This document shows positions 5,916 to 37,026 of a stretch of DNA of 42,688 nucleotides, piece by piece. Numbering within the stretch: the stretch's first letter is position 1; every line of letters begins with the position of its first letter. The stretch lies in the NCBI GenBank assembly GCA_017461665.1, contig JAFTXI010000005.1:1-42688 (forward strand). The letters run 5' to 3'. The DNA comes from Bacteroidales bacterium (lineage in GTDB: Bacteria; Bacteroidota; Bacteroidia; Bacteroidales; F082). The notes beneath the pieces are model-generated. The model searched no databases. It was not told where the DNA came from and was given only the letters and a program-made list of their open reading frames with translations. Both the position numbers and the translations under genes were made by a program.

Positions 5916-6080
5916 GTCTATAAGTAGAGACGTACCAATTACACCTACAAAAATAAACACTATGTAATTGATGCGTCTCCAAGATTTTGAAGTTTTGAGG
6001 TCTTGAGTCTCTGCTATTGGACACATTCGATGTGTCCGTACAACTGTAAATTCAATTCCTAATTCCTAATTCCTAATTAA
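5916..6080. repeat. Composite intergenic repeat, copy 1
   Basis: Fills the convergent waaA/lptB gap completely. From left to right: a hairpin with 17-base arms at 5927-5943 and 5963-5979 (GAGACG...CGTCTC ends, two mismatches); four 8-bp units at 5981-6012 (AAGATTTT, GAAGTTTT, GAGGTCTT, GAGTCTCT); the palindrome GGACACATTCGATGTGTCC at 6019-6037; and three perfect ATTCCTA heptamers at 6055-6075. The reverse complement of 31689-31856 matches it almost base for base. It may serve as a two-way terminator, but there is no clear U-tract. Confidence 0.85.
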
Positions 6081-6818
6081 TCAAAACTCTTTCTTTCTTA
6101 ATTCAAAATTGGTTCCCAAGTAATGCGTTCTTACCACTTCGTCGTTGGCGAGTTCTTCGGGAGTTCCGGCTTTAAGCACCTGACCTTCAAAAACTAAATA
6201 TGCTCTGTCGGTGATTGACAGCGTTTCGTTGGCATTGTGGTCGGTGATGAGCACGCCGATATTTTTATTTTTCAGTTTGGCTACTATACGCTGAATATCT
6301 TCTACTGCGATAGGATCGACACCAGCAAAAGGCTCATCCAAGAGAATAAACTTCGGGTCAACAGCTAAGGCGCGTGCTATCTCGGTTCTTCTACGTTCGC
6401 CACCCGAGAGCTGAATACCCTTGCTTTTTCTAATATGCTGAAGTCCGAACTCATCCAACAGTGACTCTAACTTCTCTTTCTGAGCTTCTTTCGACATGCC
6501 TTTTTTGAACTGCATAACCGAGGAGATGTTATCTTCTACACTAAGTTGACGAAACACTGAGGCTTCTTGTGCCAAATAACCGATTCCTAACTGCGCTCTC
6601 TTGTACATAGGAAACTGCGTGATGTCTTCATTGTCTAAATAGACGTGACCAGAGAATGGTTTGATGAGACCGACAGTCATGTAGAAAGTCGTTGTCTTGC
6701 CGGCTCCGTTAGGTCCAAGTAATCCCACAATCTCACCTTGTTTCACCTCAACGCTGACACCTTTTACTACGGTGCGGTTGTTATATTTCTTTACTAAGTT
6801 GTCGGTCCTAAGAATCAT
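6081..6818 (-). CDS. lptB: LPS export ABC transporter ATP-binding protein
   Basis: LptB is the cytoplasmic ATPase that drives LPS from the inner membrane through LptFG to the periplasmic bridge. At 245 residues it has the usual length. Walker A GPNGAGKT is at residues 35-42, the Q-loop LAQEASVFR at about 82-90, the signature LSGGERRR at 137-144 and Walker B FILLDEP at 157-163, followed by the family-typical FAGVDPIAV. The C-terminal extension reads YLGTNFEL. It lies 55 bases downstream of kdsD on the same strand, separated only by an 8-bp array, so the two are probably one unit. An LptF/G-type permease is in this window at 33017. Confidence 0.94.
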   Translation of the reverse strand: MILRTDNLVKKYNNRTVVKGVSVEVKQGEIVGLLGPNGAGKTTTFYMTVGLIKPFSGHVYLDNEDITQFPMYKRAQLGIGYLAQEASVFRQLSVEDNISSVMQFKKGMSKEAQKEKLESLLDEFGLQHIRKSKGIQLSGGERRRTEIARALAVDPKFILLDEPFAGVDPIAVEDIQRIVAKLKNKNIGVLITDHNANETLSITDRAYLVFEGQVLKAGTPEELANDEVVRTHYLGTNFELRKKEF

Positions 6819-6825
6819 ATTTTTT

Positions 6826-6872
6826 AAAGTTTATAGTGTAGTAGTTTTGAAGTTTTAAAGTTTTGAGGTTCA
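6826..6872. repeat. 8-bp unit array between lptB and kdsD
   Basis: Units GTAGTTTT, GAAGTTTT, AAAGTTTT and GAGGTTCA (6841-6872) run without gaps, preceded by AAAGTTTA at 6826. They fill almost the whole gap between two genes that are otherwise arranged as an operon. Confidence 0.7.
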
Positions 6873-6873
6873 T

Positions 6874-7830
6874 TTAAATAATTCCTTCTTTAATAATATC
6901 GTGGATATGTATCATTCCAACGTATTGTCCGTTTTCCATGACGGGTAGCTGTGTTATGGATTTGTTTTGCATCAGTTCTAATGCGTTGACGACGAGGTCA
7001 TCTTTTTCTATTGTCTTAGGGTTACGTGTCATAATGTCGGTGGCTTTCACCTCATTAATATCAGGATGTTTCATGAGCATTCTTCTGAGGTCGCCGTCAG
7101 TGATTATTCCAATGAGTTCATCATCTTTCATCACAGCTGTAGCTCCGAGTAGTTTTTCAGAGATTTCTATGATGACTTTTGTCATGATGTCGTTTTCGTT
7201 TACCTTAGGCACTGCGTTTTTGATGCAGACGTCACCGACTCTGAGGTAGAGGCGTTTTCCGAGTGCGCCGCCAGGATGGAACTTGGCGAAGTCTTGAGAA
7301 CTGAATCCACGACACTTGAGGAGAGCTATCGCGAGAGCATCGCCCATGACTAACTGCGCCGTGGTGCTGGCAGTAGGTGCAAGATTGTTCGGACAAGCCT
7401 CGTGAGGCACGGTGGTGTCTAAGACGTAGTCGGCTTGTGTTGCGAGGAACGACTTAGTATTACCGACGATGGCGACGAGTTTATTCTTCCTTATTTTAAT
7501 GAGAGGAGTGAGTACTTTTATCTCCGGGGTCTCGCCACTTTTAGAGATAATGACGACGACATCTTCGTCTCTGATAATACCGAGATCGCCGTGAATGGCG
7601 TCGGCAGCGTGCATGAAAACAGCCGTCGTTCCTGTGGAATTTAAAGTCGCGACGATTTTTTGTGCGATATTTGCACTCTTTCCAATACCCGAAACTATCA
7701 CATTACCCTTCGAATTTAATATTAATTCGACCACTTTGGTGAAATTATCGGTTAAAAGTTCTTTTAATCCTAATATAGAATTAGCTTCTGTGTCAATAAC
7801 TTGTATCGCGATATCTTTAATATTTTCCAT
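6874..7830 (-). CDS. kdsD: Arabinose-5-phosphate isomerase (KdsD/KpsF type)
   Basis: Interconverts ribulose-5-phosphate and arabinose-5-phosphate, the first step toward CMP-KDO. The 318 residues contain an N-terminal SIS domain (about 30-170, with VVIISKSGETPE and the HEACPNNLAPTASTT segment typical of the family) and two C-terminal CBS domains (about 200-318, with GIITDGDLRR and VGMIHIHDIIKEGI). It is transcribed away from recQ, from a promoter whose -7 box is at 7929-7936, and runs into lptB. With waaA next door the local theme is KDO/LPS biosynthesis. Confidence 0.93.
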   Translation of the reverse strand: MENIKDIAIQVIDTEANSILGLKELLTDNFTKVVELILNSKGNVIVSGIGKSANIAQKIVATLNSTGTTAVFMHAADAIHGDLGIIRDEDVVVIISKSGETPEIKVLTPLIKIRKNKLVAIVGNTKSFLATQADYVLDTTVPHEACPNNLAPTASTTAQLVMGDALAIALLKCRGFSSQDFAKFHPGGALGKRLYLRVGDVCIKNAVPKVNENDIMTKVIIEISEKLLGATAVMKDDELIGIITDGDLRRMLMKHPDINEVKATDIMTRNPKTIEKDDLVVNALELMQNKSITQLPVMENGQYVGMIHIHDIIKEGII

Positions 7831-7854
7831 ATTTTAAAAAAAATTATTTTTTTC

Positions 7855-7936
7855 TTGCTTCTTTAAAATTAAAAATCATAACTTTGTCAAAGAGACTTAA
7901 AGAAAAATTATCTCTGGATAAAACTTTGCAAATATA
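7855..7936. promoter_or_regulatory. Face-to-face promoters for recQ (+) and kdsD (-)
   Basis: Rightward: TTG at 7855-7857, a 21-base spacer and TAACTTTG at 7879-7886. Leftward: TATATTTG at 7929-7936 on the minus strand. Predicted starts are near 7893 (+) and 7922 (-), so the two nascent RNAs point at each other and would overlap by roughly 30 bases. The two promoters could interfere with one another. Confidence 0.5.
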
Positions 7937-7959
7937 AATAAAATTTCATTGAAGAGATT

Positions 7960-10164
7960 ATGGTAAAAGTTGATGATAAAAGTTTGCACAAATTATTGAA
8001 AGACGTTTTTGGTTTTGAATCATTCAAAGGAAACCAGGAAGCTATCATAAAAAGTATCCTTTCTGGTAATAACACCTTTGTTTTACTGCCTACCGGTGGA
8101 GGCAAGTCTTTATGTTATCAGTTGCCTGCTTTGTTGTGTAAAGGCACTACCATAGTGGTGTCGCCTTTGATTGCCTTGATGAAGAATCAAGTCGATATGA
8201 TTCGTAACTTCGGTGCCGACACAGGTATCGCTCATGTTATGAACTCATCTTTGTCGAAAGCGGAACTGATGCAGGTGAAACAAGACTTAGTGAGCGGTAA
8301 GACGAAACTGCTTTATGTAGCACCTGAGTCTCTCACCAAAGAGGATACCGTGGAGTTCCTACGAAGCCTTAAGATCTCGTTCGTCGCTATCGACGAGGCT
8401 CATTGTATCTCTGAATGGGGTCACGACTTCCGCCCGGAATATCGTCGATTAAGACCTATCATCAATGCCATCAATCCGAAACTCCCGGTAATTGCTCTTA
8501 CCGCAACAGCAACGGTCAAGGTTCAGAAAGACATTTTGAAGAATCTCGAGATTACAGACGCCAAGATATTTAAGTCTTCTTTCGACAGAGCAAACCTTTA
8601 CTATGAGGTGCGTCCGAAAAACAAAGACGTTGTTAGAGAAATCATAAAATATATAAAGAGCAATCCGGGTAAGTCGGGCATCGTTTATTGTCTCAGCCGT
8701 AAGAAAGTAGAAGAACTCGCTGAAGTTCTCGTAGCTAACGGAATACGCGCGCTCCCTTATCACGCCGGTCTTGACAGCCAGACTCGTCGCGACAATCAGG
8801 ACAAGTTCCTTATGGAAGAGGTTGATATTATCGTGGCTACAATAGCCTTTGGTATGGGAATCGACAAACCGGACATTCGTTTCGTGATTCACCACGACAT
8901 ACCTAAGAGTCTCGAAGGTTATTATCAAGAGACAGGTAGAGCAGGACGCGACGGCGGCGAAGGCAAGTGCATCGCTTTCTACGACTACGAAGATATTCAT
9001 AAGTTGGAGAAATTTAATAAAGGCAAAGATGTCGCTGAACAAGAGATAGCCCGTGAACTCCTCAACGAGACAGTGACATACGCCGAGTCGTCGGTATGTC
9101 GCCATAAGTTATTGCTGCATTATTTCGGTGAGAACCATGAAAAAGAAAACTGCGGCTCCTGCGACAACTGCGTCAACCCTAAGATTAAGTTCGACGCCAA
9201 AGAAGATGTAAAACTCGTGATAGAAGCTATTGTTGAAACGAAACAGTTGTTCAAGACAAAACATATAGCAGAGTTCCTCACAGGTAAAATGACCGGTGAT
9301 ATCATCACAGCCAAACACGATACTTTGGAATTATTCGGTGCAGGCGACGACAACGACGAAAAATATTGGACCTCAATAATACGTCAGACCGTCGTTCATG
9401 GATTCCTGACAAAAGACATCGAAGAATATGGCGTGCTGAAAGTCACTAAGGAAGGTAAAGACTTCTTGAAGAAACCTCATCCGGTGATGATGGCTAAAGA
9501 CCATGACTACGACCACCCTGATGAAGACGAATTTGATGAAGAAAGAATAGCTTTCGGTAAGGACAGCGGAACAGACAAGACCTTGTTCGCAATGCTGAAA
9601 GACCTCCGTAAGACGATGGCTAAGAAAATGAATCTCCCTCCTTTTGTCATCTTCCAAGATCCTTCATTAGAGGATATGACGATACAATATCCTATCACGA
9701 TGGACGAACTCACACAGATCGTTGGTGTGGGACAGGGCAAGGCACAGAAATTCGGTCAACCTTTCTTAGACCTTATCAAGGAATATGTCGAAGAAAACGA
9801 GATTACTCGTCCTAACGATATGGTAATTAAGTCGTCTGTCAATAGGTCGGCACTCAAGATAAGTATTATTCAAAATATAGATAGAAAGATTCCGTTGGAA
9901 GACATCGCTCACTCCAAGAACATGGGATTTGATGAGCTTCTCACCGAGATAGAAAGCATAGTGGCAAGCGGAACACGTTTAGATATAAACTATTATATTG
10001 AAGATAATATCGACGAATATCATCAAGAAGATATTTTGGAATATTTCCGCGAAGCCGACTCCGACACTGTGGATGACGCGTTAGACGCTCTCGGCGTCAA
10101 CGAATATGAGGAGGAAGAAGTGCGCCTAATGCGAATTAAATTTTTCTCTGAAGTTGGAAACTAA
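7960..10164 (+). CDS. recQ: ATP-dependent DNA helicase RecQ
   Basis: A 3'-5' DNA helicase of recombination and fork repair. The 734 residues include Walker A TGGGKS at 45-50, DEAH at 145-148 followed by the RecQ-specific [16 protein letters not shown], helicase motifs V and VI ([28 protein letters not shown]), and the zinc-binding cysteines C380, C398, C401 and C404. An RQC winged-helix region and an HRDC-like segment (about 530-620, with the [20 protein letters not shown] helix-hairpin) follow. The extra C-terminal part (about 630-734) contains a helicase-associated helix-turn-helix and an acidic tail, which makes it longer than E. coli RecQ (about 609). The stop overlaps the start of the next lipoprotein gene. 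Confidence 0.95.
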
Positions 10165-10501: not shown

Positions 10502-10513
10502 TTAGAAATTAAA

Positions 10514-10550
10514 AACGCGTTAAGTGCATCGTTTCTGCATTTAACGCGTT
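10514..10550 (-). terminator. Intrinsic terminator between convergent genes
   Basis: A 15-base stem (AACGCGTTAA plus GTGCA, answered by TGCATTTAACGCGTT, with one G-U pair) and a 7-base loop. On the minus strand the stem is followed by TTTTT, so it best serves osmC. The symmetric stem may also stop the recQ/DUF4296 transcript. Confidence 0.75.
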
Positions 10551-10573
10551 AAATCATAGTCTCGTAGACTCTA

Positions 10574-11097: not shown

Positions 11098-11583
11098 ATG
11101 AAAAGATTTTTTACTCCTCTATGTTTTATAATCGTGGCTTTTATGACGTTGACTTTTGTATCATGTGGCGACGATTTCCCTGATGAAGGCTATTTCAAAA
11201 TTGGTAACACTCATTATAATATTAATGAGGCAAGTCTTCAAGACGTAGGCTACGACAGCGAAAGCGATTTGTATCAGTTGCGTCTTACGATGGACAACAC
11301 AAGTCATAACGATTTCCATTCTATCAACGTCATTTTTTATTCCGAAGTGAATACTTATCTACCAAGCGCTACATATACACCTTATTTGTACGACAACGAT
11401 TTCGAACATAAGTTCAAACGCGGAGCTTGGTTAGTCGGTGATCAAGAAGGCGGCGTGTTCCTCTCAGGAAATATCAAGGTCACCAAGTCGGATGAGAAAT
11501 ATATCATACATCTCAACTGCAAAGACACAAATAATAATGATGTCGTTGCTGAATATGAAGGAAAAATAAAAGTTAGAATCTGA
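11098..11583 (+). CDS. Small lipoprotein, paralogue of the 2713-3780 lipoprotein
   Basis: A 161-residue lipoprotein. The signal sequence ends in LTFVSC with C23 as the lipidation site. The mature region is one domain, from GYFKIGNTHYNINEAS to EYEGKIKVRI, and it parallels residues 33-165 of the lipoprotein 8 kb away, so this gene seems to encode that domain alone. A weak TATTTTTA motif about 25 bases before the ATG may be the promoter. The stop is followed directly by an 8-bp array. It is convergent with malQ. Function is unknown. Confidence 0.7.
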   Translation: MKRFFTPLCFIIVAFMTLTFVSCGDDFPDEGYFKIGNTHYNINEASLQDVGYDSESDLYQLRLTMDNTSHNDFHSINVIFYSEVNTYLPSATYTPYLYDNDFEHKFKRGAWLVGDQEGGVFLSGNIKVTKSDEKYIIHLNCKDTNNNDVVAEYEGKIKVRI

Positions 11584-11650
11584 GAATTTTAGAACTTTAG
11601 AATTTTAGAATTTTGGCGGTTATTAATGTAGGGACACATTGAATGTGTCC
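11584..11650. repeat. 8-bp array plus palindrome
   Basis: Four 8-bp units (GAATTTTA, GAACTTTA, GAATTTTA, GAATTTTG) start immediately after the lipoprotein stop (11584-11615). After 16 bases comes the palindrome GGACACATTGAATGTGTCC at 11632-11650, with perfect 9-base arms around one central base. malQ ends 10 bases further on. Confidence 0.8.
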
Positions 11651-11659
11651 GGTGGAGAT

Positions 11660-16554: not shown

Positions 16555-16555
16555 A

Positions 16556-16678
16556 GTTTAAAGTTGAGAGTGTAGAGTTTAGAGTAGTTGTGAAGTTTAT
16601 AGTTGCCAAGTTTAAAATCACCAACTATAAACTTTCTAACTACTTTTAACTCTTAACTATAAACTATTAACTAAAATA
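16556..16678. repeat. Repeat-rich spacer with a 13-bp hairpin
   Basis: Degenerate 7-8 bp units related to AAAGTTTA/TAGAGTTT on the left and TAACTATAAAC-type units on the right. AAGTTTATAGTTG at 16593-16605 is perfectly inverted as CAACTATAAACTT at 16622-16634. The sequence fills the gap between the antiporter gene and the decayed gene. There is no strong U-tract, so terminator activity is uncertain. Confidence 0.6.
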
Positions 16679-17633: not shown

Positions 17634-20600
17634 ATGAAAAAGTTAACATCTTTACTGTTTTTGACATTGATAAGTTTGTTTGTCACAGCTCAGGTTGTCG
17701 AACAGACTTATTTTTTTGAAAGTCCTGTCGTGACTGAGATTCAAGGTTATAACCAAGTACAACTTTCGGGTTGTATGCAGACCGCTGTCTCGGGTAGTCC
17801 TTCTCTTCCTTATAAGTCGGTGAGTCTTCTGTTACCTTACGGTTCTGAGGCAGAATCTGTGGAAGTGCTGCTTTCCGATTTTGAAGAGATAAATATCAAG
17901 CAACAGCTGTTTCCTTATCAGCCGTCACGTCCTTATTCAAAGCCTGAACGTGAGAAGTTTATGAAAAACGAAGAGATATATTCTTCAAAGTCGATATATC
18001 CTTCGGTATGTCACGGCGAGTTATCGACACATTATCTCAATGGTCACGCTTTCGCCTTCACCTCTTTCACTCCTATACAATATCAGCCTTCTTCAGGTAA
18101 GCTGATGTATGCCAAGACTGCTACCGTCAGGGTGAAACTTACTTCTGCTAAGAGAGACAATACTGCTATGTTATGGAACACTTCTTCCGTAAACGAGAGA
18201 GTCAAGTCGTTGGCTGACAATCCAGAGATGATTGATTCTTACAAGACAAGAGGCAGAGAACTCGCTGCTTACGACATGCTCATCATCACAGGTGAGGAAT
18301 ATGTGGCTGGCTTCGAGGAATATGTAGAATATTATGAGAGCATAGGAGTCCGTAATGTCATAGTCACTACCGATGAGATATATTCTTCAACAGAAGGTCA
18401 GGACAATCCTGAGAAGATTCGTAACTATATAATTAATGAATATACTAACAAAGGTATCATCATGGTGCTTCTTGGTGGCGACGTCAATATAGTTCCTTAT
18501 CGCGGCTTGTACTGTCACGTTCAGTCAAGCTCTGTATATGAAGACAGCGACATCCCTGCCGACTTATACTATTCGGCATTGGACGGAACATGGAACGACA
18601 ATAACAACAGCAGATGGGGCGAGATTGGAGAAGACGACTTGCTTCCTGAGATTGGCATCGCTCGTATGTCGTTCAACAGTGCTACCAAGCAAGCCAATAT
18701 GATTAACAAGACATTGAAATATCAACGCGAGCCTGTGTTGGGTGAGTTCAGAGATGTCACCTTGGCAGGCGAGTGGCTCTACGATAACCCAGAGACATGG
18801 GGCAGCGACTATATGGAACTACTCATCGGCGAACGCGACGACAATGGATATACCACTATCGGTATCCCAGAAGATTATAACTTCACACGTCATTATGCTG
18901 AAGACAACACTTGGGGTCCTACTCAGCTGAGAAACACCATCAACAATGGAACACAATACGTTCATCACGTGGGACATGCCAACACCAACACCGTCGCTGA
19001 GTGGTACAATAGCGACATCACTGACGCTAACTTCAGCGACGCCAACGGCATTGATCACAACTACACCTTCTTCCATTCGCACGGCTGCGTATGCGGATCT
19101 TTCGAAGACGACTGTATCATGGAGAGAATGGTGTCGATACAGAATTTCGCAGTAGCTGCTATAGGTAACTCGCGTTACGGTTGGTTCAACGAAGGTCAGA
19201 CAGAAGGTCCTGCTCCTCACCTACATCGCGAGATGACCGACGCTCAATATCATGAACGTATCCCGTTCTTGGGAATGCATATCTCTGAAGCTAAATGCCA
19301 GACAGCACCTTTCGTCAATGCTCCGGGACAGTGGGAAGAAGGAGCGCTACGATGGAACTTCTACGACCTCAATGTACTCGGTGACGGCGCGGTAAGACCA
19401 TGGCTTGACGAGCCTTTCAACCCAAACATCGAGTTCGACGAACAATTATTAATAGGTATGCAATCGACAGAAGTCGTGGTAAAAGATGAAAATAACATCG
19501 GACAGAAAGGATTCCGTTGCAGTATAGTGTTAGACGGCGAGTTGATAGGTTTCGATATCACCGACGACAACGGAGTGGCTGAGATAACATTCGACGGCGG
19601 CTTGTCGTCGGTAGGTGAAATGAAACTCTATGTGACAGGTCTCAACGCCTTCCCTCAAGCATTGGACATTGCAGCTGTTCCTAACAATGCTGCTTACGTC
19701 TTCTATGACGAATATACTTTCAACGACAACAACGATAACGCTCAGATAGATTATAAAGAGTCGGTGACATTGAATGTGACATTCAAAAATGTTGGTAATG
19801 TCGATGCTTCAAACGTGACAGCGACACTTTCTTGCGACAAGCCTGATTATGTCAATATCACCGATGCTGATGCAGAACTAGGCGATATAGATGCTAACGA
19901 CAACCTCACCCTTGAAGAAGCTTTCGCCTTCAGCGTCTGCGACAGCGTGCCAAACAACACAAACGTGAAGTTCTTCGTGACTTGCACCGATGGCAACGAG
20001 ACTTGGGAAAGCAAGTTTAACGTTATATTGAACGCTCCCGACTTGAAGATTGAAGTGCCGGAATCGGCGACAGAGCTTAACGCAGGAGAAAACGCAACTA
20101 TAGAATTTAATGTCGCCAATGTAGGAAACAGCGATGCAGCCAACGTGGTGTTCGCAGTCTTCGCTTCGGAAGAGATAAACTTCGACCAAGGTCAAGTTAT
20201 TGTGCCATCGATAGGAGCTGGCGGAGAAGCTAATGTGAAAATATCGTTCACTATGTCGGAAGATGCTGAGATAGGAGCAGCATACGAGTTACAAGTCTTC
20301 GCTTATTCAGGAAGATATATCACAGGAGAGATTTATTACGTGATGTCGGGCAACGTCACCGAGGACTTCGAGACTGGCGACTTCAGCAAGTTCGACTGGG
20401 TCTTAGAAGGCAATCCTTCTTGGGAGATAACGAGCGACAATGTTTATGCAGGACAATATTCAGCCATGACAAGAGATGTTGACGATCAGAGTTCTGCAAC
20501 ACTTAGGATTGTCATGAACGTACAGTCGGATGCCGAATTTAGTTTCTGTAAGAAGGTATCTTCTGAGACTGGATTCGACGGATTGATATTCTCCATTGAC

Positions 20601-21014
20601 GGCAGCGAGATGGAGAATTGGTCGGGAGAAGATGATTGGTCGGAAGAGAAATTTAATCTGACCGCCGGCGAACATACTTTGGAATGGACATATAAGAAAG
20701 ACTATTCGGTATCGGAAGGTATGGACTGTGCCTTCTTGGATAACATCAAGTTCCCTCCAACAAGTGTCATCGTCGATATCGAGACAGTGATGGAAGATAA
20801 CCTATCGATATATCCAAATCCTGCGAAAGACGTTGTTAAGTTATCATCTGTCAGCAGTCAGATTTCAATAGTAAAGATTTATAATGTCATGGGAATTATC
20901 ATAGACGAGATAGAAGTCAATTCTAATGAGATAGAGATTAATGTCTCGGATTATGCACCTGGAATTTATTTCTTTAATATTGATGGAGAAACACGTAAAT
21001 TAATTAGGAATTAG
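17634..21014 (+). CDS. C25 (gingipain-like) cysteine peptidase with T9SS sorting domain
   Basis: An 1126-residue exported protease. Order: signal peptide (1 to about 20, ending TAQ); a gingipain-type propeptide-like region (about 20-210); the C25 catalytic domain (about 215-600) with the likely catalytic dyad H448 in HHVGHANT and C485 in HSHGCVCGSFEDD; two CARDB-like Ig repeats (about 690-900, both built around FKNVGN/FNVANVGN); a cleaved-adhesin/MAM-like beta domain (about 900-1040, DFETGDFSKFDW); and a type A T9SS sorting domain (about 1055-1126, SIYPNPAKD ... GIYFFNIDG). The protein is predicted to cross the outer membrane through the T9SS and be anchored or released. The last residues LIRN and the stop come from a TTAGGAA repeat array. 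The gene appears monocistronic, with a U-tract hairpin downstream. Confidence 0.9.
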   Translation: MKKLTSLLFLTLISLFVTAQVVEQTYFFESPVVTEIQGYNQVQLSGCMQTAVSGSPSLPYKSVSLLLPYGSEAESVEVLLSDFEEINIKQQLFPYQPSRPYSKPEREKFMKNEEIYSSKSIYPSVCHGELSTHYLNGHAFAFTSFTPIQYQPSSGKLMYAKTATVRVKLTSAKRDNTAMLWNTSSVNERVKSLADNPEMIDSYKTRGRELAAYDMLIITGEEYVAGFEEYVEYYESIGVRNVIVTTDEIYSSTEGQDNPEKIRNYIINEYTNKGIIMVLLGGDVNIVPYRGLYCHVQSSSVYEDSDIPADLYYSALDGTWNDNNNSRWGEIGEDDLLPEIGIARMSFNSATKQANMINKTLKYQREPVLGEFRDVTLAGEWLYDNPETWGSDYMELLIGERDDNGYTTIGIPEDYNFTRHYAEDNTWGPTQLRNTINNGTQYVHHVGHANTNTVAEWYNSDITDANFSDANGIDHNYTFFHSHGCVCGSFEDDCIMERMVSIQNFAVAAIGNSRYGWFNEGQTEGPAPHLHREMTDAQYHERIPFLGMHISEAKCQTAPFVNAPGQWEEGALRWNFYDLNVLGDGAVRPWLDEPFNPNIEFDEQLLIGMQSTEVVVKDENNIGQKGFRCSIVLDGELIGFDITDDNGVAEITFDGGLSSVGEMKLYVTGLNAFPQALDIAAVPNNAAYVFYDEYTFNDNNDNAQIDYKESVTLNVTFKNVGNVDASNVTATLSCDKPDYVNITDADAELGDIDANDNLTLEEAFAFSVCDSVPNNTNVKFFVTCTDGNETWESKFNVILNAPDLKIEVPESATELNAGENATIEFNVANVGNSDAANVVFAVFASEEINFDQGQVIVPSIGAGGEANVKISFTMSEDAEIGAAYELQVFAYSGRYITGEIYYVMSGNVTEDFETGDFSKFDWVLEGNPSWEITSDNVYAGQYSAMTRDVDDQSSATLRIVMNVQSDAEFSFCKKVSSETGFDGLIFSIDGSEMENWSGEDDWSEEKFNLTAGEHTLEWTYKKDYSVSEGMDCAFLDNIKFPPTSVIVDIETVMEDNLSIYPNPAKDVVKLSSVSSQISIVKIYNVMGIIIDEIEVNSNEIEINVSDYAPGIYFFNIDGETRKLIRN

Positions 21015-21233
21015 GAATGAGGAATGAGGAATTGTGGGGACGTATCGCATACGTCCATGTACGGACACATTTAATGGGTCCTATAGAGGCGCTTCAGTGT
21101 TTTCTATAAAAATGGATAAGCATTGAAGCGTCTTTTTTTAAACTTCAAAACTACATCACCCCAAGACTCCAAAACTTCAGAACCTCAAGATATTCTGAGA
21201 TTCTGAAGTTTTAAAGTTCTAAAACTCTAATAG
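21004..21233. repeat. Composite intergenic repeat with two palindromes
   Basis: Order: four heptamers (TTAGGAA twice, TGAGGAA twice, 21004-21031), overlapping the end of the peptidase gene; palindrome GGACGTATCGCATACGTCC (21038-21056); palindrome GGACACATTTAATGGGTCC (21063-21081, one mismatch); a hairpin at 21086-21134 that ends in a T-run; then degenerate 8-bp units to the stop of the HdeD-like gene (for example GAGATTCT, GAAGTTTT, AAAGTTCT, AAAACTCT). This is the fullest example of the modular spacers in the window. Confidence 0.8.
21086..21139 (+). terminator. Intrinsic terminator of the C25 peptidase gene
   Basis: Arms of 14 bases, GAGGCGCTTCAGTG (21086-21099) and CATTGAAGCGTCTT (21121-21134), pair with three G-U wobbles and are followed by a run of seven T (21133-21139). 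The arms are a divergent member of the GAGACG/CGTCTC hairpin family, which hints that this repeat family can act as a terminator. Confidence 0.65.
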
Positions 21234-27661: not shown

Positions 27662-27674
27662 TTTTCTTTTGGTA

Positions 27675-27723
27675 GAGACGCGTCAATTACACGAAATATA
27701 AACAATATGTAATTGACACGTCT
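27675..27723. repeat. GAGACG-type hairpin between purE and the rhomboid gene
   Basis: Arms AGACGCGTCAATTACA (27676-27691) and TGTAATTGACACGTCT (27708-27723) pair with one mismatch. The spacer contains ATAAACAATAT, close to the ATAAACACTAT of copies 1 and 2. This is the solitary hairpin module without the palindrome and arrays. Only TT follows, so it is a weak terminator at best. Confidence 0.75.
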
Positions 27724-27732
27724 TTACGTTTA

Positions 27733-28337: not shown

Positions 28338-31300
28338 GTGGAAGAACAAATTAAAAAGATATATTCTAACGACCCTATTGTCAAGAAGTTGATTGCAGCT
28401 TTAGACGAGAACAATCGTCTCTGCTGTCATGGACTATCAGGTTCGTCGCGAGCATACGTCGTCGCATCGGTGGCTTCGATAATAGGTAAACACAATTTCA
28501 TTATTTGCAGCGACAAGGAAAGAGCAGCTTATTTCTATAACGACATCGAGAATATTTTGGGAGAGAAAGACTTCGACTATAGCAAGAAGCAGGTGCTTTT
28601 TTACCCTACATCATACAAACGTCCTTATCAGCCGGAGAAACCCGATAACACTTATATCCTCTCGCGTACCGAGGTGCTTCAACGTATATCTACCAGCAAC
28701 AGAAAGACTATCATCGTCTCTTATCCAGAAGCTCTGAGCGAGAAAGTCATCACGCGTAAGGTGATGAACAAAAACACCTTCAAGATCTCCGTGGGAGATA
28801 ATATCTCGATGGATAGCCTCACCGACACCTTGGTAAACTTCAATTTCGAGCATGTCGATTTCGTAGTAGAACCTGGGCAGTTTGCAATAAGAGGCGGCAT
28901 CGTCGATGTGTTCTCCTTCTCTAACGATTATCCGTATCGCGTTGAGTTCTTCGGTAATGAGATAGATTCTATTAGAAGTTTCAACCCCATCGACCAACTA
29001 TCGGTGGAAAGTCTTAAGAACGTTGTCATAATTCCAAATCTTCAGGACAACAATATCAGCGAGGAGAGAGAAACGATATTTCAATATCTCAAAAACAATT
29101 CGGTGATATGGATTGAAGACGAACATTCTCTCGAAGAAAAGATTGAACAGGAGTTCATGAAAGCCGTCGAGATTTTTAACGAACGTGAAGATATTGAAGA
29201 AGAACCGGAGACGGCATTTGCTAATGGAGAAGAACTGATTTCTCAGTTAGACGACTTCAAGACAATAGTCTTCGGGAACTTCATCAACAGAGACGAACGA
29301 CTCTCCATCGATTTCAATACCTCGCATCAGCCTGCATTCAACAAAAACTTCGACATGCTTCTTGAAGATATTAAGGAACTTAAGTCGAAGAAATATTCTA
29401 TCTTCTTTTTCTCTGAAAGTAAGAAACAGCTGCAACGAATACAAAGTATCTTAAATGATATTCAACACCTTGACGAGGATTATCAGAATTTCACAGAGAT
29501 ATATCATTCCATACAGTCGGGATTTATCGACAAAGACTTGAAGATTTGTTGTTATACCGATCATCAGATTTTCGAGCGTTATCATCGTTTTCGTCTTCGT
29601 GAAGGTTTTGCTTCGAGTCAGGCTCTGACGATTAAGGAGTTATACGATCTGAAACCTGGCGATTATGTCACGCATATTAATTACGGTATAGGTCGTTTTG
29701 ATGGTTTGGAGATTATAAACAACAACGGGAAACAGCAGGAAGCCATGCGTTTGATTTATCAGAACGGCGACCTTCTGCATGTCAGCATTCACTCTTTACA
29801 TCGTATCTCGAAATATTCGAGTAAAGATGGCTCGCAGCCAACGTTGAGCAAACTCGGTTCGAGTTCTTGGAACAAACTGAAGGAGAAGACGAAGAGTCGC
29901 GTCAAGGACATAGCACGCGAACTTATCAAGTTATACGCTGAACGGAAGAACAGCAAGGGTTTTCAATATATGCCCGACACTTATCTTCAGACGGAGTTAG
30001 AGGCTTCGTTTATGTATGAAGACACTGCTGACCAACTGAAGGCTACCGTCGATGTGAAACGCGACATGGAATCAGAAACGCCGATGGACCGCCTCATCTG
30101 CGGCGACGTGGGTTTCGGTAAGACAGAAATAGCTATCCGCGCCGCATTCAAAGCTGTCTGCGACTCTAAACAAGTAGCTGTTTTAGTGCCAACAACAGTA
30201 CTCGCCATCCAACATTATCAGACATTTAGCAAACGACTGAAAGGCTTCCCCGTCAATATCGATTATATAAACCGTTTTAAGTCTGCTAAAGAACAGAAGA
30301 AAACGATAGAGGATTTGAAGAACGGACGCGTCGATATATTAATAGGTACTCACAGCATCATCGGAAAGAACGTCACTTTCAAAGATTTAGGATTACTTAT
30401 CATCGACGAGGAACAGAAGTTCGGCGTCTCTGCAAAAGAGAAACTCAAACAGCTCCAGACAAATGTCGATACCTTGACACTCACTGCGACACCTATTCCA
30501 AGGACGCTGCAGTTCTCCATGATGGGAGCACGCGATATGAGTATCATCAAGACTCCGCCACCGAACAGACAACCTGTCGAGACAGAACTTCACACCTTCA
30601 ATCATGAGATAATTCGCGATGCTATTCAGTATGAACTCGCTCGCGACGGACAGGTTTTCTTCGTTCACAACAGAGTACAAAACATTCAGAACATCTGCGA
30701 TATGATTACGAGTTACGTCCCTGGTGTGAGAGTGGGTGTAGCTCACGGTCAGATGGAAGGCAGTAAATTAGAGAAGGTCATGCTCGACTTCATCGACGAG
30801 AAATATGATGTTCTGCTCTCGACGACAATCATCGAGGCTGGACTCGATATTCCTAATGCGAACACTATCATTATTAATGAAGCCCAAAACTTCGGTCTCA
30901 GCGACTTACATCAGCTGAGAGGAAGAGTGGGACGTTCCAACAAGAAGGCGTTCTGTTATCTTTTGTCGCCTCCTCTTTCTGTCTTGTCGGACGAGGCTCA
31001 GAAGCGACTGCGTGCTTTGGAAGATTTCTCCGACCTTGGCAGCGGATTCAACATCGCTCTCCGCGACTTGGATATTCGTGGAGCAGGAAATTTGTTAGGA
31101 GCGGAGCAGAGTGGTTTCATCAACGACATCGGCTTCGAGACGTATCATAGAATCTTAGATGAGGCAATACTCGAACTTAAAGAGACGGAGTTTAAGGATA
31201 TCTTTGAAACAGAATTGAAAGACAAGAAGTTCGTTAGCGATTGCGTCTTTGAGTCTGACTTAGAAATCTTGATACCTGACGAATATGTCGATTCTTCAGC

Positions 31301-31688
31301 TGAGCGTATCAGTCTTTACACAGAACTGAATCATATTCAGAACGAAGAAGGATTGCAGCGTTTTACGAGTAACCTCATCGACCGTTTTGGAAAGATACCC
31401 CCACAGACGGTAGACCTGCTCAACAGCATGCGACTACGATGGATTTCGCGTGACTTAGGTTTCGAAAAAGTTATGTTGAAACATAAGGAGATGACAGTGC
31501 ATCTCGTGTCTAATCAGGAGTCGGAATATTATCAGACTGATATCTTTATGAAGATAATACGTTACGCATCCATTCACAGAGAACGATGTAGGGTAAAGGA
31601 GTTAAATGGTAAAAATATCTTTAACGTAGAAAGAGTTGCTAACGTTGGCGAAGCACTTAAGATTGTTAATGATATAATGAACTTGTGA
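28338..31688 (+). CDS. mfd: Transcription-repair coupling factor
   Basis: Mfd pushes stalled RNA polymerase off damaged DNA and recruits UvrAB. The 1116-residue protein has the UvrB-like N-terminal domains (about 1-340, with FYPTSYKRPY and QFAIRGGIVDVFS), the RNA-polymerase-interacting CarD-like domain (about 435-500, LKPGDYVTHINYGIGRFDGLE), the RecG-like translocase with Walker A GDVGFGKT at 589-596 and DEEQ at 690-693, LTLTATPIPRTL, the TRG region (HQLRGRVGRS), and the C-terminal TRCF domain. The start is GTG; no in-frame ATG is available nearby. The stop is followed directly by composite repeat copy 2. uvrC is also in this window. Confidence 0.95.
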   Translation: MEEQIKKIYSNDPIVKKLIAALDENNRLCCHGLSGSSRAYVVASVASIIGKHNFIICSDKERAAYFYNDIENILGEKDFDYSKKQVLFYPTSYKRPYQPEKPDNTYILSRTEVLQRISTSNRKTIIVSYPEALSEKVITRKVMNKNTFKISVGDNISMDSLTDTLVNFNFEHVDFVVEPGQFAIRGGIVDVFSFSNDYPYRVEFFGNEIDSIRSFNPIDQLSVESLKNVVIIPNLQDNNISEERETIFQYLKNNSVIWIEDEHSLEEKIEQEFMKAVEIFNEREDIEEEPETAFANGEELISQLDDFKTIVFGNFINRDERLSIDFNTSHQPAFNKNFDMLLEDIKELKSKKYSIFFFSESKKQLQRIQSILNDIQHLDEDYQNFTEIYHSIQSGFIDKDLKICCYTDHQIFERYHRFRLREGFASSQALTIKELYDLKPGDYVTHINYGIGRFDGLEIINNNGKQQEAMRLIYQNGDLLHVSIHSLHRISKYSSKDGSQPTLSKLGSSSWNKLKEKTKSRVKDIARELIKLYAERKNSKGFQYMPDTYLQTELEASFMYEDTADQLKATVDVKRDMESETPMDRLICGDVGFGKTEIAIRAAFKAVCDSKQVAVLVPTTVLAIQHYQTFSKRLKGFPVNIDYINRFKSAKEQKKTIEDLKNGRVDILIGTHSIIGKNVTFKDLGLLIIDEEQKFGVSAKEKLKQLQTNVDTLTLTATPIPRTLQFSMMGARDMSIIKTPPPNRQPVETELHTFNHEIIRDAIQYELARDGQVFFVHNRVQNIQNICDMITSYVPGVRVGVAHGQMEGSKLEKVMLDFIDEKYDVLLSTTIIEAGLDIPNANTIIINEAQNFGLSDLHQLRGRVGRSNKKAFCYLLSPPLSVLSDEAQKRLRALEDFSDLGSGFNIALRDLDIRGAGNLLGAEQSGFINDIGFETYHRILDEAILELKETEFKDIFETELKDKKFVSDCVFESDLEILIPDEYVDSSAERISLYTELNHIQNEEGLQRFTSNLIDRFGKIPPQTVDLLNSMRLRWISRDLGFEKVMLKHKEMTVHLVSNQESEYYQTDIFMKIIRYASIHRERCRVKELNGKNIFNVERVANVGEALKIVNDIMNL

Positions 31689-31837
31689 TAATTAGGAATT
31701 AGGAATTGAATTTACAATTGTACGGACACATCGAATGTGTCCTATAGTAGAGACTCAAGACCTCAAAACTTCAAAATCTCGGAGACGCATCAATTACATA
31801 GTGTTTATTCTTATTGGTGTAATTGGTACGTCTCTAC
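31689..31837. repeat. Composite intergenic repeat, copy 2 (inverted)
   Basis: Fills the convergent mfd/pssA gap and continues about 20 bases into the pssA 3' end. Order: two TTAGGAA heptamers (31692-31705), the palindrome GGACACATCGAATGTGTCC (31724-31742), octamers (about 31750-31778), then the GAGACG/CGTCTC hairpin (about 31779-31833). Read on the minus strand it matches 5916-6080 at nearly every base. Visible differences are an 8-base duplication (TCTATAAG), a few substitutions in the hairpin loop, single changes near the palindrome, and one heptamer fewer. Confidence 0.85.
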
Positions 31838-32545
31838 TTATAGACTTATAGACTCTAAAATATAAAAAAGCATCACGAAAGGAATCGCTGCAAATCCTAA
31901 GAAAATGAACGCTGTCACTGCAAAAATCGCGAGTATATAAATCTTAATATTTTCCTTAAATTTTAAATTCTTGACTTTTAATGAGAAGAATGGAATCTCG
32001 CTTACCATTAGGTAGCTGAATATCGCTATCACGACAAGAAGAAAAAGAGGACTTGCGATAAGTTCACCTATGAAAGCGAGCGTTTCATTCATTAAAGTGA
32101 AAGGCAGAGATGCCACGAAAATTCCCATCGCCGGAGTAGGAAGTCCGATGAAAGACGTCGTCTGACGATCGTCGATGTTGAACTTTGCAAGACGTAAGGC
32201 GGCAAACACCGCGAGGAGAAACGCTGCAAACGGCAAGACGCTGAAACCGGCTATCTCAAGACGCCATTGAGGTAACGTCACTACAGACTGACTTAGATAG
32301 TGATACATTATGAAAGAGGGCGCAACACCGAAAGAGACAACGTCCGACAGAGAATCCAACTCGGCACCGAGTGGAGAATACGCCTTCAACAAACGCGCTG
32401 CAAAACCATCGAAAAAATCGAAGACGGCAGCAACGAAAATCATAATACCAGCAGCAGTCATCATGCCGTTACACGACAACACAATAGAAATACAACCCGA
32501 AAAAAGATTGCAACATGTTATAGCATTAGGAATATGTTTTTTCAT
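31838..32545 (-). CDS. pssA: CDP-diacylglycerol-serine O-phosphatidyltransferase
   Basis: Makes phosphatidylserine, the precursor of phosphatidylethanolamine, in the inner membrane. The CDP-alcohol phosphotransferase motif is complete: D43, D46, G47, A50, R51, G60, D64 and D68. Five to seven hydrophobic segments follow. This is the integral-membrane type II enzyme (235 residues). The start is the ATG at 32545; a TTG two codons earlier lies in a heptamer array. The final residues LESISL and the stop are written in an 8-bp repeat (TATAAGTC units) that merges into the composite repeat. It lies 20 bases downstream of the PAS gene. Confidence 0.92.
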   Translation of the reverse strand: MKKHIPNAITCCNLFSGCISIVLSCNGMMTAAGIMIFVAAVFDFFDGFAARLLKAYSPLGAELDSLSDVVSFGVAPSFIMYHYLSQSVVTLPQWRLEIAGFSVLPFAAFLLAVFAALRLAKFNIDDRQTTSFIGLPTPAMGIFVASLPFTLMNETLAFIGELIASPLFLLVVIAIFSYLMVSEIPFFSLKVKNLKFKENIKIYILAIFAVTAFIFLGFAAIPFVMLFYILESISL

Positions 32546-32571
32546 TGTCAATTGTTAATTGTCAATTACCT
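32544..32571. repeat. Heptamer array spanning a start and a stop codon
   Basis: Units ATTGTCA, ATTGTTA, ATTGTCA and ATTACCT are contiguous. On the minus strand the array provides the PAS gene stop (32566-32568) and touches the pssA ATG (32543-32545), so the whole gene junction is made of repeat. Confidence 0.75.
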
Positions 32572-32895
32572 CACATAATGTGGCATATCATCAGGAAGAA
32601 TGATGGAATATTCGATGAGTCCCTTAATCTCTCCATCGACGTACCAAGGAGTTTGGTAAATCATTTTCCTCACCTCGCCTTTTTGTATCGTATAAACATT
32701 CGTGGCTTTCTCGTTGATAAGACGCTTTATCGTTTCCTGCGACGACTGTTTATGACATGCCATCATGTTCTTTCCAACCATATCGCTGAACACGCTTTTC
32801 GATTTGTCATTCATATATATAACATTACCCTCTGTGTCAGAGACAGTTATACTCACATTAATTTCTTTGAAGAAGTCAAAAATATTATTTTCCAT
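32566..32895 (-). CDS. Stand-alone PAS domain protein
   Basis: A 109-residue protein that is nearly all one PAS domain: INVSITVSDTEGNVIYMNDKSKSVF opens the fold, GKNMMACHKQSSQETIKRLI forms the helical part with a possible ligand- or cofactor-proximal C-H pair, and NVYTIQKGEVRKMIYQTPWYVDG forms the last strands. There is no output domain, so it would act as a small-molecule or redox sensor through a partner, or bind a ligand itself. The start is the ATG at 32895; a TTG two codons upstream is less likely. It is co-directional with pssA, 20 bases upstream, suggesting linked expression. Confidence 0.78.
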   Translation of the reverse strand: MENNIFDFFKEINVSITVSDTEGNVIYMNDKSKSVFSDMVGKNMMACHKQSSQETIKRLINEKATNVYTIQKGEVRKMIYQTPWYVDGEIKGLIEYSIILPDDMPHYVR

Positions 32896-32988
32896 AAACA
32901 AAAATTTTAATGCAAAAAAAAGAAATATTTGTCAATAAAAATACGTTTTTTAAAAAAAAATAATTACCGAAGTAAAGAGGTAAAATGT

Positions 32989-32996
32989 TATATTTG
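32989..32996 (+). promoter_or_regulatory. -7 element of the LptF/G-glycosyltransferase operon
   Basis: TATATTTG, with a predicted start near 33003 and a 14-base leader to the TTG start at 33017. Here the TTG is downstream of the box and is probably the real start. Confidence 0.55.
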
Positions 32997-33016
32997 CAAA
33001 CATAATTAAGATAATC

Positions 33017-34471: not shown

Positions 34472-34474
34472 ATT

Positions 34475-35698
34475 ATGAATATCTTAATGCTTTGTAACAA
34501 GTCGCCCTTCCCGCCTACCGAAGGCGGACCTATGGCAATGAACAGCATTGTCAACGGATTGATCGAAGCCGGTCATAGGGTCAAGATTCTTGCCGTCAAC
34601 AGCGAGAAATATCACATCAAGGAAAAAGATATTCCTAAATCTTATAAAGAAAAAACAGGCATCGAACTCATCGATGTCGATCTGAGGATAAAACCCATAA
34701 AAGCCTTTAAGAATCTATTCTCAGATAAATCATATCACGTAGAACGTTTTATCTCCGACGACTTCAACAAGAAGCTCATCGAGATTTTGAAGAAAGATAA
34801 ATTTGATATCGTACAATTGGAGATGATTTACATGGCACCATACATCGAGACTATCAGAGAACTCTCCGATGCCAAGATAGTGTTGCGAGCCCATAACGTA
34901 GAACATCTCATCTGGGAAAGAATAGCTAAGAAAACAAAGTTTTTACCTAAGCGTTGGTACATAAACCATTTGGTTAGTACATTAAGAAACTACGAGTTAG
35001 AAGCCATCAACAAAGTCGATGGCATTGCAGCTATCACCTACAAAGACGCTGCTTTCTTCAGAGGCGAGACAGCTGTCCCTGTCGTCGATATTCCGTACGG
35101 CGTGAATCCGGAAGAGTTCATCCCTAATTATGAGGTGAAAGAGAAACCTACCTTATACCATATAGGTTCGATGAATTGGATGCCTAATGAAGAAGGAATA
35201 TATTGGTTTTTGAAGAACGTCTGGGACAAGGTAGCAAAACGTAATCCCGACTTGACTCTGAATCTTGCCGGACGTCATACACCCCAATGGCTGATGAACC
35301 TTAAGAAGAGAAACGTCAATGTGTTGGGTGAAGTACCCGATGCCAAAGATTTTATCAGAAACAACGACATAGCTATAGTTCCACTTCTCTCCGGCAGCGG
35401 GATAAGAATAAAAATCATCGAGTCGATGGCGATGGGAAGAACGGTAGTGACCACTATGGTAGGAGCCGAAGGAATACAATATTCCGAATACGAAAACATC
35501 ATCATCGCCGACAGTCCAGCTAAGATGGTCGAGGTAATTTGTAAGATTTTAAACGAACCCAACGAAGCCAGGAGGATAGGCTGGAACGCACGACGATTGG
35601 TAGAAGATTTATACGACAACAAGAAAATTATCGACAGACTGATGATTTTCTACGATGAGATAATTAAGACAAAGAAAGACATAACATACATCAATTAA
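34475..35698 (+). CDS. Glycosyltransferase family 4-type protein
   Basis: A 407-residue GT-B fold enzyme. The N-terminal half shows NKSPFPPTEGGPMAMNSIVNGLIEAGH, the glycine-rich acceptor-side loop of GT4 enzymes. The C-terminal half contains HIGSMNWMPNEEGIYWFL, the LAGRHTP strand, and the donor-binding PLLSGSGIRIKIIESMAMGRTVVTT with the conserved ESMAMG. It starts 3 bases after the permease stop and is followed 9 bases later by a second GT4 enzyme, suggesting that both act on an LPS core or other surface glycan. Sugar and linkage cannot be assigned. Confidence 0.85.
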   Translation: MNILMLCNKSPFPPTEGGPMAMNSIVNGLIEAGHRVKILAVNSEKYHIKEKDIPKSYKEKTGIELIDVDLRIKPIKAFKNLFSDKSYHVERFISDDFNKKLIEILKKDKFDIVQLEMIYMAPYIETIRELSDAKIVLRAHNVEHLIWERIAKKTKFLPKRWYINHLVSTLRNYELEAINKVDGIAAITYKDAAFFRGETAVPVVDIPYGVNPEEFIPNYEVKEKPTLYHIGSMNWMPNEEGIYWFLKNVWDKVAKRNPDLTLNLAGRHTPQWLMNLKKRNVNVLGEVPDAKDFIRNNDIAIVPLLSGSGIRIKIIESMAMGRTVVTTMVGAEGIQYSEYENIIIADSPAKMVEVICKILNEPNEARRIGWNARRLVEDLYDNKKIIDRLMIFYDEIIKTKKDITYIN

Positions 35699-35707
35699 AG
35701 CCATACC

Positions 35708-36883
35708 ATGAAGATATTTGTATTGTTACCGAGAATACCCTGGACGCTCGAGAAAGGCGACAAACTGAGAGCCTTCAACCAGATCAGACAACTCTCCAAG
35801 AACAACGAGATTGTGTTATGCGCTTTAAATACAGAGAGTAAAATCAACAAAGAAGAAGCCTTCAGAGCGCTTCAGCCCTACTGCGTATCGATTTCGTTCA
35901 TCGACATAAAAAAGACATCAATATTATTCAATGTCGTTGCCGCTTTCCTTAAAGGAATACCACTTCAATGCGGTTATTTCTACAACAAGAAAGCTCACGA
36001 GAAGATACAGAAACTCATCGAGAAGCACAATCCTGACATGCTGTTCGGTCAGCTTCTGAGGGTGGCACAATATATCCGTCACGAGAAGACAGCGAAAACA
36101 ATAGACTATCAAGACGTTTTCTCGATGGGAATGAAGAGAAGATATGATATCGCGCCTTTCTATCTCAAGCCTTTTTTCAATATGGAATACAAACGCTTGC
36201 GTCGTTATGAACGCGTCATCTTCGACGAGTTCGATGTGAAGACTATCATCAGCATCCCCGACCGCGAGTTCATCGATCATCCCAAAAAGAAAGAAATACT
36301 CATCGTACCTAACGGCGTCGATCATGAATATTATTCGCCTATAGAACGTGAGAAAAAATACGACATCGTGTTCACCGGCAACATGGCTTACGCACCTAAC
36401 GTCAACGCAGTGGAATATCTCGCCAATGAGATAATGCCTTTGGTTTGGAAAGTATTTCCTAATGCGAAACTATATGTCGCAGGTGCCTCGCCCGACCCTC
36501 GCGTGAGGAAGGTAGCTTCCGACAAGATAATAATAAGCGGATGGATCGACGACATGAGAGAGGCTTACGCACAAAGCAAGATATTCATCGCGCCGATGAG
36601 AATAGGAACAGGCTTGCAGAACAAACTCTTGGAAGCGATGTCGATGCAACTTCCTTGTATCACAACACCTTTGGCAAACGAGTCGTTACAAGCTGAAGTA
36701 GGGAAAGAGATACTCGTTGGCAGCGACGCACAAGAACTCACAAGTCATATCATCACACTTCTGAACGATAAAGAAAAATCAGACACCTTGGCACAAAACG
36801 GCTACGACTTCGTACATCGCGTTTATGACTGGGAAAAAGCAACAGGAATCATGGAAGAAGCGATGGTGTTAATTAGGAATTAG
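35708..36883 (+). CDS. Glycosyltransferase family 4-type protein
   Basis: A 391-residue GT-B enzyme. The start MKIFVLLPRIPWTLEKGDKLRAFNQIRQLS has the N-terminal loop of the group, and FTGNMAYAPNVNAVEYLAN, LYVAGASPDPRV and PMRIGTGLQNKLLEAMSMQLPCITT give the donor domain. It resembles the TIGR03087-like subgroup that acts with exopolysaccharide or envelope glycan genes. The stop codon and the final residues LIRN are supplied by the TTAGGAA array that follows, exactly as in the unrelated C25 peptidase gene at 21014. Confidence 0.84.
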   Translation: MKIFVLLPRIPWTLEKGDKLRAFNQIRQLSKNNEIVLCALNTESKINKEEAFRALQPYCVSISFIDIKKTSILFNVVAAFLKGIPLQCGYFYNKKAHEKIQKLIEKHNPDMLFGQLLRVAQYIRHEKTAKTIDYQDVFSMGMKRRYDIAPFYLKPFFNMEYKRLRRYERVIFDEFDVKTIISIPDREFIDHPKKKEILIVPNGVDHEYYSPIEREKKYDIVFTGNMAYAPNVNAVEYLANEIMPLVWKVFPNAKLYVAGASPDPRVRKVASDKIIISGWIDDMREAYAQSKIFIAPMRIGTGLQNKLLEAMSMQLPCITTPLANESLQAEVGKEILVGSDAQELTSHIITLLNDKEKSDTLAQNGYDFVHRVYDWEKATGIMEEAMVLIRN

Positions 36884-37026
36884 GAGTTAGAAATTAGGAA
36901 TTATTGTAGGAACGTATCGCATACGTCCAACAGAGACGTAATTGTTGCGTCTCATAAATAATATGAATTAAATAAATATAACCCAGTTAACTTGTTGACT
37001 TATTGACTCGTTGACTTATAGACTTA
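36873..37026. repeat. Composite intergenic repeat with TTGACTTA array
   Basis: Order: four heptamers (TTAGGAA, TTAGGAG, TTAGAAA, TTAGGAA, 36873-36900); palindrome GGAACGTATCGCATACGTCC (36909-36928); a short GAGACG...CGTCTC hairpin (36933-36953); an AT-rich gap; then four octamers (TTGACTTA, TTGACTCG, TTGACTTA, TAGACTTA, 36995-37026) ending 5 bases before the ettA ATG. It follows the module order of the other composites with different unit sequences at the right end. Confidence 0.8.

Follow-up and report, generated by a model that had tools for sequence, protein, structure and literature searches.

A stretch of 42,688 nucleotides from a Bacteroidales bacterium (contig JAFTXI010000005.1 of assembly GCA_017461665.1, C55 in our numbering; hereafter the window) carries palindromes and GAGACG hairpins in several of its spacers. 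We found that these are GTAG-tagged repetitive extragenic palindromic (REP) elements. They very probably belong to the GTAG superfamily and were spread by a REP-associated tyrosine transposase (RAYT, or TnpA-REP, an HUH-type Y1 enzyme) like those of subclass 2.4. Their kind is ordinary and their detail rich: GTAG REPs of a subclass-2.4-like RAYT, together with a heavy load of arrays of 7- and 8-nt units. We identify them as REPs because they have a one-sided GTAG or GTAC foot, avoid divergent spacers and include a long hairpin with a covarying stem.

Three types are named here: A, the GGACGTATCGCATACGTCC palindrome; B, the palindrome GGACACAT...ATGTGTCC; and C, the GAGACG...CGTCTC long hairpin. 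The initial annotation of the window had described four spacers (5916-6080, 21004-21233, 31689-31837 and 36873-37026) built from the same parts in related order, namely TTAGGAA-type heptamers, one or two palindromes, and then the GAGACG hairpin and an octamer array in either order. Inspection of the sequence confirmed these parts and their order in all four, and the modules are indeed amplified, apparently mobile, located at gene 3' ends and non-randomly ordered in this genome. Three of the four spacers (5916-6080, 21015-21233 and 31689-31837), rather than two, lie between convergent genes. The placement of the modules at stop codons holds, with the correction that the stop codons at 21014 and 36883 are part of the heptamer array and that those at 5915 and 31838 fall within the octamer array or border it. 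An inverted 7-mer array (16555-16672) and a palindrome copy inside uvrC (40851-40869) had not been listed. The features of the window are as follows.

5897-5924: octamer array spanning the stop codon of gene 4695-5915
5924-5979, plus strand: C-type REP with a GTAG foot and the long GAGACG..CGTCTC hairpin
5985-6006: octamer array
6019-6041, minus strand: B-type REP, GTAC foot and GGACACATCGAATGTGTCC
6054-6078, minus strand: TTAGGAA heptamer array immediately 3' of gene 6081-6818 (minus strand)
11573-11650, plus strand: octamer array (11573-11614) and B-type REP with GTAG foot (11628-11650)
16555-16672: inverted pair of 7-mer arrays, not a REP, 3' of a stop codon; the flanking genes are not neighbours in relative G009
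21002-21033, plus strand: TTAGGAA/TGAGGAA heptamer array containing the stop codon of gene 17634-21014
21034-21056, plus strand: A-type REP, GTGG foot and GGACGTATCGCATACGTCC
21059-21081, plus strand: B-type REP, partly decayed
21086-21134, plus strand: C-type REP variant with decayed foot, then a T run
21141-21230: octamer arrays, partly inverted relative to each other
27672-27724, plus strand: C-type REP, single
31690-31707, plus strand: TTAGGAA heptamer array 3' of the stop codon of gene 28338-31688
31720-31742, plus strand: B-type REP, GTAC foot
31754-31780: octamer array
31782-31837, minus strand: C-type REP whose foot abuts the stop codon of gene 31838-32551 (minus strand)
31836-31854: octamer array overlapping the 3' end of gene 31838-32551
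36871-36903, plus strand: TTAGGAA heptamer array containing the stop codon of gene 35708-36883
36906-36928, plus strand: A-type REP, GTAG foot
36933-36953: shortened GAGACG..CGTCTC hairpin
36990-37026: octamer array ahead of the next gene
40847-40869, plus strand: B-type REP in frame within uvrC (39904-41781), part of CTDTSNVST

The gene at 6081-6818 (minus strand) is presumably lptB-like.

Foot, hairpin and distribution of the REP elements

The palindromes recur genome-wide, as a search for each module in the whole assembly (2.49 Mb in 60 contigs, 94% complete) showed. The exact B palindrome GGACACATTCGATGTGTCC is present at nine places, the A palindrome at 49 places with at most two mismatches (counted from the match list), and the C pattern gave 87 rows per strand, while the controls, which were the reversed patterns in the same genome, gave 0 for each. 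Exact B matches in a genome collection fell in 54 stretches, 53 of which were labelled Bacteroidales, Bacteroidia, Bacteroidetes or a family therein; many of the 54 were ruminant-derived and one was labelled Taibaiella. A spacer type that recurs in Bacteroidales assemblies from the ruminant gut is now tied to a known transposase family. In two of the records (RGIG7675 and RGIG7428), the B palindrome repeats every 103-104 nt, resembling a longer tandem unit (L040, L046, L055, L061, L066, L068, L072, L081, L085 and L088).

The foot is GTAG or GTAC, and not the CGTC of the Rickettsia palindromic elements (RPEs) and CGTC REPs, and it stands on one side. Among 38 GAGACG..CGTCTC stretches, GTA was found on one side only in 29, on both sides in none and on neither in nine. 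B copies in the 54 stretches of other records had GTAG or GTAC on one side in 60 of 67 cases and on both in none; immediately 5' of short hairpins taken without selection (n = 122), GTAG occupied 20 of 244 sides. (Foot counts from the spacer-class comparison, which picks the better strand, play no part in this argument.) Position -1 of the foot is a T in 93% of 44 distinct footed B copies elsewhere, many of them near-identical (RGIG7675), and in 72% of the 47 footed A and B copies here. This T fits a target rule, and array edges may offer such a T.

The C hairpin consists of six outer pairs, then positions 7 to 9 and then a covarying inner stem. We compared 36 copies, which were kept from 44 regular-expression hits after removal by hand of about six false hits in coding sequence and two atypical copies. 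Pair 8 is Watson-Crick in all 36 with three pair types, against a best of 26 in 2000 shuffles, while pair 7 is Watson-Crick in one (T-G in 28) and pair 9 in seven. In the A stem, traced through the 23 genomes with A-type matches in a set of 60 genomes of relatives, T-A, C-G or G-C is mostly kept at one pair, and the stem mostly varies on both sides together.

REP density, based on 84 regular-expression elements and on gene calls from a simple dicodon model rather than a published caller, was 2.78/kb in convergent, 1.38/kb in tandem and 0.12/kb in divergent spacers. Divergent spacers held two of the 84 elements, and the convergent density was 23 times the divergent one. The wider spacer-class count (102 elements) retains the false C hits and, probably, one false B hit at window 19763-19781.

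The available passages of Di Nocera et al. (2013; PMC3733652) on the GTAG REP superfamily describe the same one-sided GTAG foot, short hairpins, clusters, bias towards convergent and tandem spacers, location near gene ends and copies in genes, including uvr genes. In those passages the TAG of the foot serves as a stop codon, and no such case was found in the window. The one of those passages that names the Bacteroidetes does so under the CGTC repeats, and associations with other repeats are not examined there in detail, whereas here the REPs are tied to 7- and 8-mer arrays. A literature search, outside whose coverage most subscription journals lie, returned nothing that describes the REP families of these Bacteroidales or 7- and 8-mer arrays at REP feet.

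RAYT relics and linkage

The likely movers of the palindromes and hairpins are RAYTs. A search of the assembly with the Y1_Tnp profile gave no match (0 of 1 genome), and the same profile matched in 46 of the 60 genomes of the relatives set. The suggestion from this null result that there is no transposase at all was dropped when the RAYT of relative G015 was used as query and located relics. This query matched in 37 of the 60 genomes and at three places in the assembly. The statement in the initial annotation that no matching transposase is in the window is correct, yet RAYT relics are present on contigs C22 and C23. The C23 relic starts at about 85065 and is split over two frames, the second part reading into the first of four C-type REPs (85631, 85753, 85828 and 85950; together 85631-86003), with a decayed C-like copy upstream. 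The C22 relic (7694-7882) contains two TGA codons and lies between two inverted B-type REPs.

The G015 protein has the motifs NHIH, WQ and YIENNP, and its gene holds one in-frame REP inside (VGTRRATS) and another at its end. Against the NCBIfam model REP_Tyr_transpos (cut-off 80 bits) it scored below the cut-off (E 2.4e-14, 53 bits), and a protein from G022 scored above it (E 1.1e-25, 90 bits). Closest among described classes is TnpA-REP subclass 2.4, which the G015 protein appears to resemble closely, judging by motifs compared by eye and not by a tree. According to the accessible parts of Quentin et al. (2018; PMC6006769), this subclass is abundant in Cyanobacteria and Bacteroidetes and shares the motifs NH[IFV]H, WQ and YIxNNP (matched by eye), long or double-foot REPs and in-frame REP copies inside the transposase gene. 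In contrast to what is described there, the RAYT genes here are broken, and the C type has two near-constant non-Watson-Crick positions flanking a covarying pair.

The A-like REPs of relatives lie within or beside genes of one RAYT clade. GTAG hairpins occurred at 0.86/kb in 29 G015-type RAYT loci, drawn also from other families of the order, against 0.11/kb in 29 UvrC control loci, all from the genus, and 0.11/kb in shuffles; the RAYT loci were thus 7.5-fold richer than the UvrC loci. At least one GTAG hairpin was present in 25 of the 29 RAYT loci and in 10 of the 29 UvrC loci.

Several results weigh against spread by such an enzyme. An intact RAYT was not found in this 94% complete assembly, which yielded broken pieces only, and the A type's own RAYT was not found in it either. 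The linkage is limited to one RAYT clade, and the loci compared differ in breadth, genus-only for UvrC and taxonomically wider for RAYT. At set flank distances, hairpins stood on both sides in 10 of 29 G015-type loci and on at least one side in 19 of 29. Among the 30 best Y1_Tnp loci, five (L098, L100, L109, L114 and L120) had a GTAG hairpin with an arm of at least 7 and 25 had none. The main other carriers of C hairpins, G027 and G009 (25 and 5 rows), have no match to the G015 RAYT. The insert in uvrC described below spans more than the REP and has no clean insertion boundary, and a RAYT leaves the 7- and 8-mer arrays unaccounted for. The absence of an intact gene bears on present activity, not on origin. 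As only broken RAYT genes were found in this genome, the REP copies probably date from past activity.

If it worked as known RAYTs do, the enzyme would have bound the hairpin, folded from single-stranded DNA, together with its GTAG foot and inserted copies 3' of a T. Copies would persist where they are least harmful, which is immediately downstream of stop codons, in convergent spacers and, in some cases, in frame within proteins.

A 216-residue RAYT-like protein of G022 and G012 was considered as the source and set aside, as it has no match in G000, G009 or G027. It is encoded at L156 1691-2338 and L157 1809-2456, and two GTAG hairpins lie just upstream in G022. At L100 2036-2640 (G004), a run of 60-nt GTAGGAGCTC units adjoins a RAYT-type gene.

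In-frame copies and altered gene order

The window gene 39904-41781 is uvrC, as a Pfam check showed, and its B-type REP is in frame and encodes most of CTDTSNVST. The insert of about 13 residues is missing in 29 of 29 aligned relatives (29 of 35 other matching genomes had the locus). A conserved protein such as UvrC can therefore bear an in-frame REP peptide. Further in-frame copies lie in genes that presumably encode an RND-like transporter (L027), a RecD/PIF1-like helicase (L026), a NAGLU-like protein (L013) and, with several copies in one gene, a glycosyltransferase-like protein. A strict in-gene test of the 659-kb sample described below placed 12 of 102 REP hits inside genes; seven likely REPs remain once four apparently false C hits and the equally doubtful B hit at 19763 are set aside. 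Of 35 A and B loci put to the same test (38 in total), five were in frame. Arrays lay in frame within coding sequence in 29 of 185 cases. Recurring in-frame peptides are RDVSHTS, QQTTDNRQQT and KSPSHQVAKSPS. A copy in a YgjP-like gene (L023/L253), which adds four residues relative to six close relatives, did not pass the strict test.

Palindromes in frame in protein genes are also known from the Rickettsia elements RPE-4 and RPE-6, as relayed in the passages of PMC3733652 at hand. These are of the CGTC type, with no dedicated transposase seen according to the same passages, whereas the elements here are of the GTAG type and have RAYTs.

A CCTTCGACAAGCTCAGG / GAGCCTGTCGAAG repeat adjoins REPs and also occurs in frame (PSTSSGT, AEPVEA) at L011, L012, L016, L031 and C16:13815-15807.

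Two repeat clusters of the window (5907-6071 and 31690-31854), each 165 nt long, are inverted copies of one another and 95% alike (nine differences; longest identical run 31 nt). The lptB-like gene (6081-6818) and the gene at 31838 each abut one copy. In G009 and G027, the lptB-like gene lies beside the ortholog of 31838-32464 in convergent orientation, and here the two are 25 kb apart; flipping segment 6071-31690 restores their adjacency. The second junction predicted by such a flip (5915 beside 31688) is absent from G009, in which about 22 kb lie between the two genes; the genomes must therefore differ by more than one event. The case is one of two repeat-cluster copies coinciding with changed gene order. 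An assembly error at the repeats in place of a real rearrangement is improbable: the assembly is a draft of 60 contigs and the junctions fall at repeats, but identity between the copies runs for 31 nt at most, which makes the error less likely, and it would leave the identification of the REPs untouched.

The same gene-end positions could mark a selected 3'-end regulatory module, a terminator or mRNA stabiliser reused at many genes, and the strong 3'-end and convergent bias and the strict hairpin covariation agree with such a role, as do the D-type hairpins, five of eight of which have a T run on either side. We regard this as unlikely. Few hits of the other types have a T run on either side (C, 9 of 44; A, 1 of 16; B, 0 of 22; E, 1 of 12), so that the T run of an intrinsic terminator after the hairpin is mostly lacking in types A, B, C and E. 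Copies also lie in frame inside genes, the comparable spacers of relatives hold different repeats or none, and Rfam at gathering thresholds gave no hits in the window. Some REP copies may nevertheless act on RNA.

Heptamer and octamer arrays

The arrays were examined in a sample of 659 kb (26% of the genome) as Tandem Repeats Finder rows, with one order-1 Markov shuffle as control. Rows of period 7 numbered 128 and of period 8 numbered 116, against 15 and 16 in the shuffle, and these two periods are the dominant ones among the tandem arrays of the sample. After merging, 73 of 102 7-mer arrays were intergenic, spacers making up 11% of the sample. REPs shared a spacer with arrays in 53 of 84 cases (expected 32.9 +/- 4.5), a value reached in none of 5000 stratified permutations. 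The median distance from REP to array was 16 nt, against 41 nt for random placement in the same spacer, and the observed mean was reached in 2 of 500 placements.

Around the 47 footed A and B copies, some of which are related and which alone entered this test, three heptamer families stand on the foot side in one orientation: TTAGGAA seven times, CAACAGA five and AATTGTT ten, against two, one and one elsewhere. Octamer seeds showed no foot-side preference around these copies. C-type copies have AATTGTT units on both sides, and in 8 of 38 copies an A or B is succeeded by a C that points the same way. In other records, TTAGGAA heptamers lie near 3 of 67 B copies (background 31 of 530 windows), and arrays beside B copies stand on the foot side in 3 of 44 and on the other side in one. 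The foot-side order was thus observed only in this genome.

Many TTAGGAA rows were obtained from G000, G009, G023 and G027, and none from 46 of the 60 genomes; G009, G023 and G027 have 149, 69 and 149 rows, respectively, and no A-type rows. Array density was 0.25/kb in UvrC loci and 0.10/kb in RAYT loci of relatives, 0.41/kb in the 54 other records and 0.28/kb here, the last counted from merged arrays and the others from Tandem Repeats Finder rows. The arrays are not special to REP-rich loci. A folding z-score below -2 was obtained for 25 of 87 arrays and for 18 of 146 control spacers; hairpins therefore account for only part of the arrays. The inverted 7-mer array pairs at window 16555-16672 and 39821-39870 are potential long hairpins, and similar pairs of 7- or 8-mer arrays lie at C3:83579-83671 and C23:99444-99525.

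Eight spacers of the window could be compared with relatives (same neighbours in G009 or G027, and a repeat in at least one of the three genomes), and in none did a relative have the same repeat. One shared case was found: G009 has forward TTAGGAA directly after lptB, as here, while in G027 it is reversed and further off. Because of the distributions of TTAGGAA and the A type, the B copies of other records and these unshared spacers, we conclude that the modules are independent across genomes, that the spacers turn over fast and that the order reflects where REPs settled in this genome. The arrays are very probably a separate class of fast-turnover tandem repeats filling the same spacers, and A and B copies would have settled preferentially at array edges here, giving the cassette order.

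Intergenic 7-mer arrays have been described as TAACTGA repeats (MacGregor 2015; PMC4679880), present in some Bacteroidetes, with other heptamers in the same spacers and a suggested role in gene rearrangement, as the accessible text has it. Compared with the repeats in that text, many different 7- and 8-mer units occur here in one genome, and some arrays are on the foot side of REPs, in frame in genes or inverted.

It is possible, but doubtful, that the arrays are part of the REP process, a RAYT landing at array edges or arrays forming beside the GTAG foot during processing of single-stranded DNA. If this were true, arrays and REPs would be the two parts of one system, by which the ends of genes and the loops of proteins are rewritten and flips of chromosome segments aided.

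A single composite mobile or amplifying element, in which heptamers, palindrome, hairpin and octamers would move as a unit, one of the two readings offered in the initial annotation, is very unlikely, since for all the near-identity of the two 165-nt inverted copies, the recurrent C-B and 7mer-A/B-C runs (C23:141697-141780 and C3:47673-47756 are 89% alike over 84 nt) and the three foot-side heptamer families, heptamers and REPs expand independently across genomes, as the rows of G009, G023 and G027, the B copies elsewhere and the eight comparable spacers indicate, and modules often stand alone, the nearest 45 nt being free of other modules on the foot side of 25 of 44 C hits and on the other side of 29 of 44 (about 6 of the 44 being false).

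In the spacer upstream of uvrC (39822-39903; L172-L200), comparison by eye found heptamers, octamers, a REP or almost nothing among the relatives.

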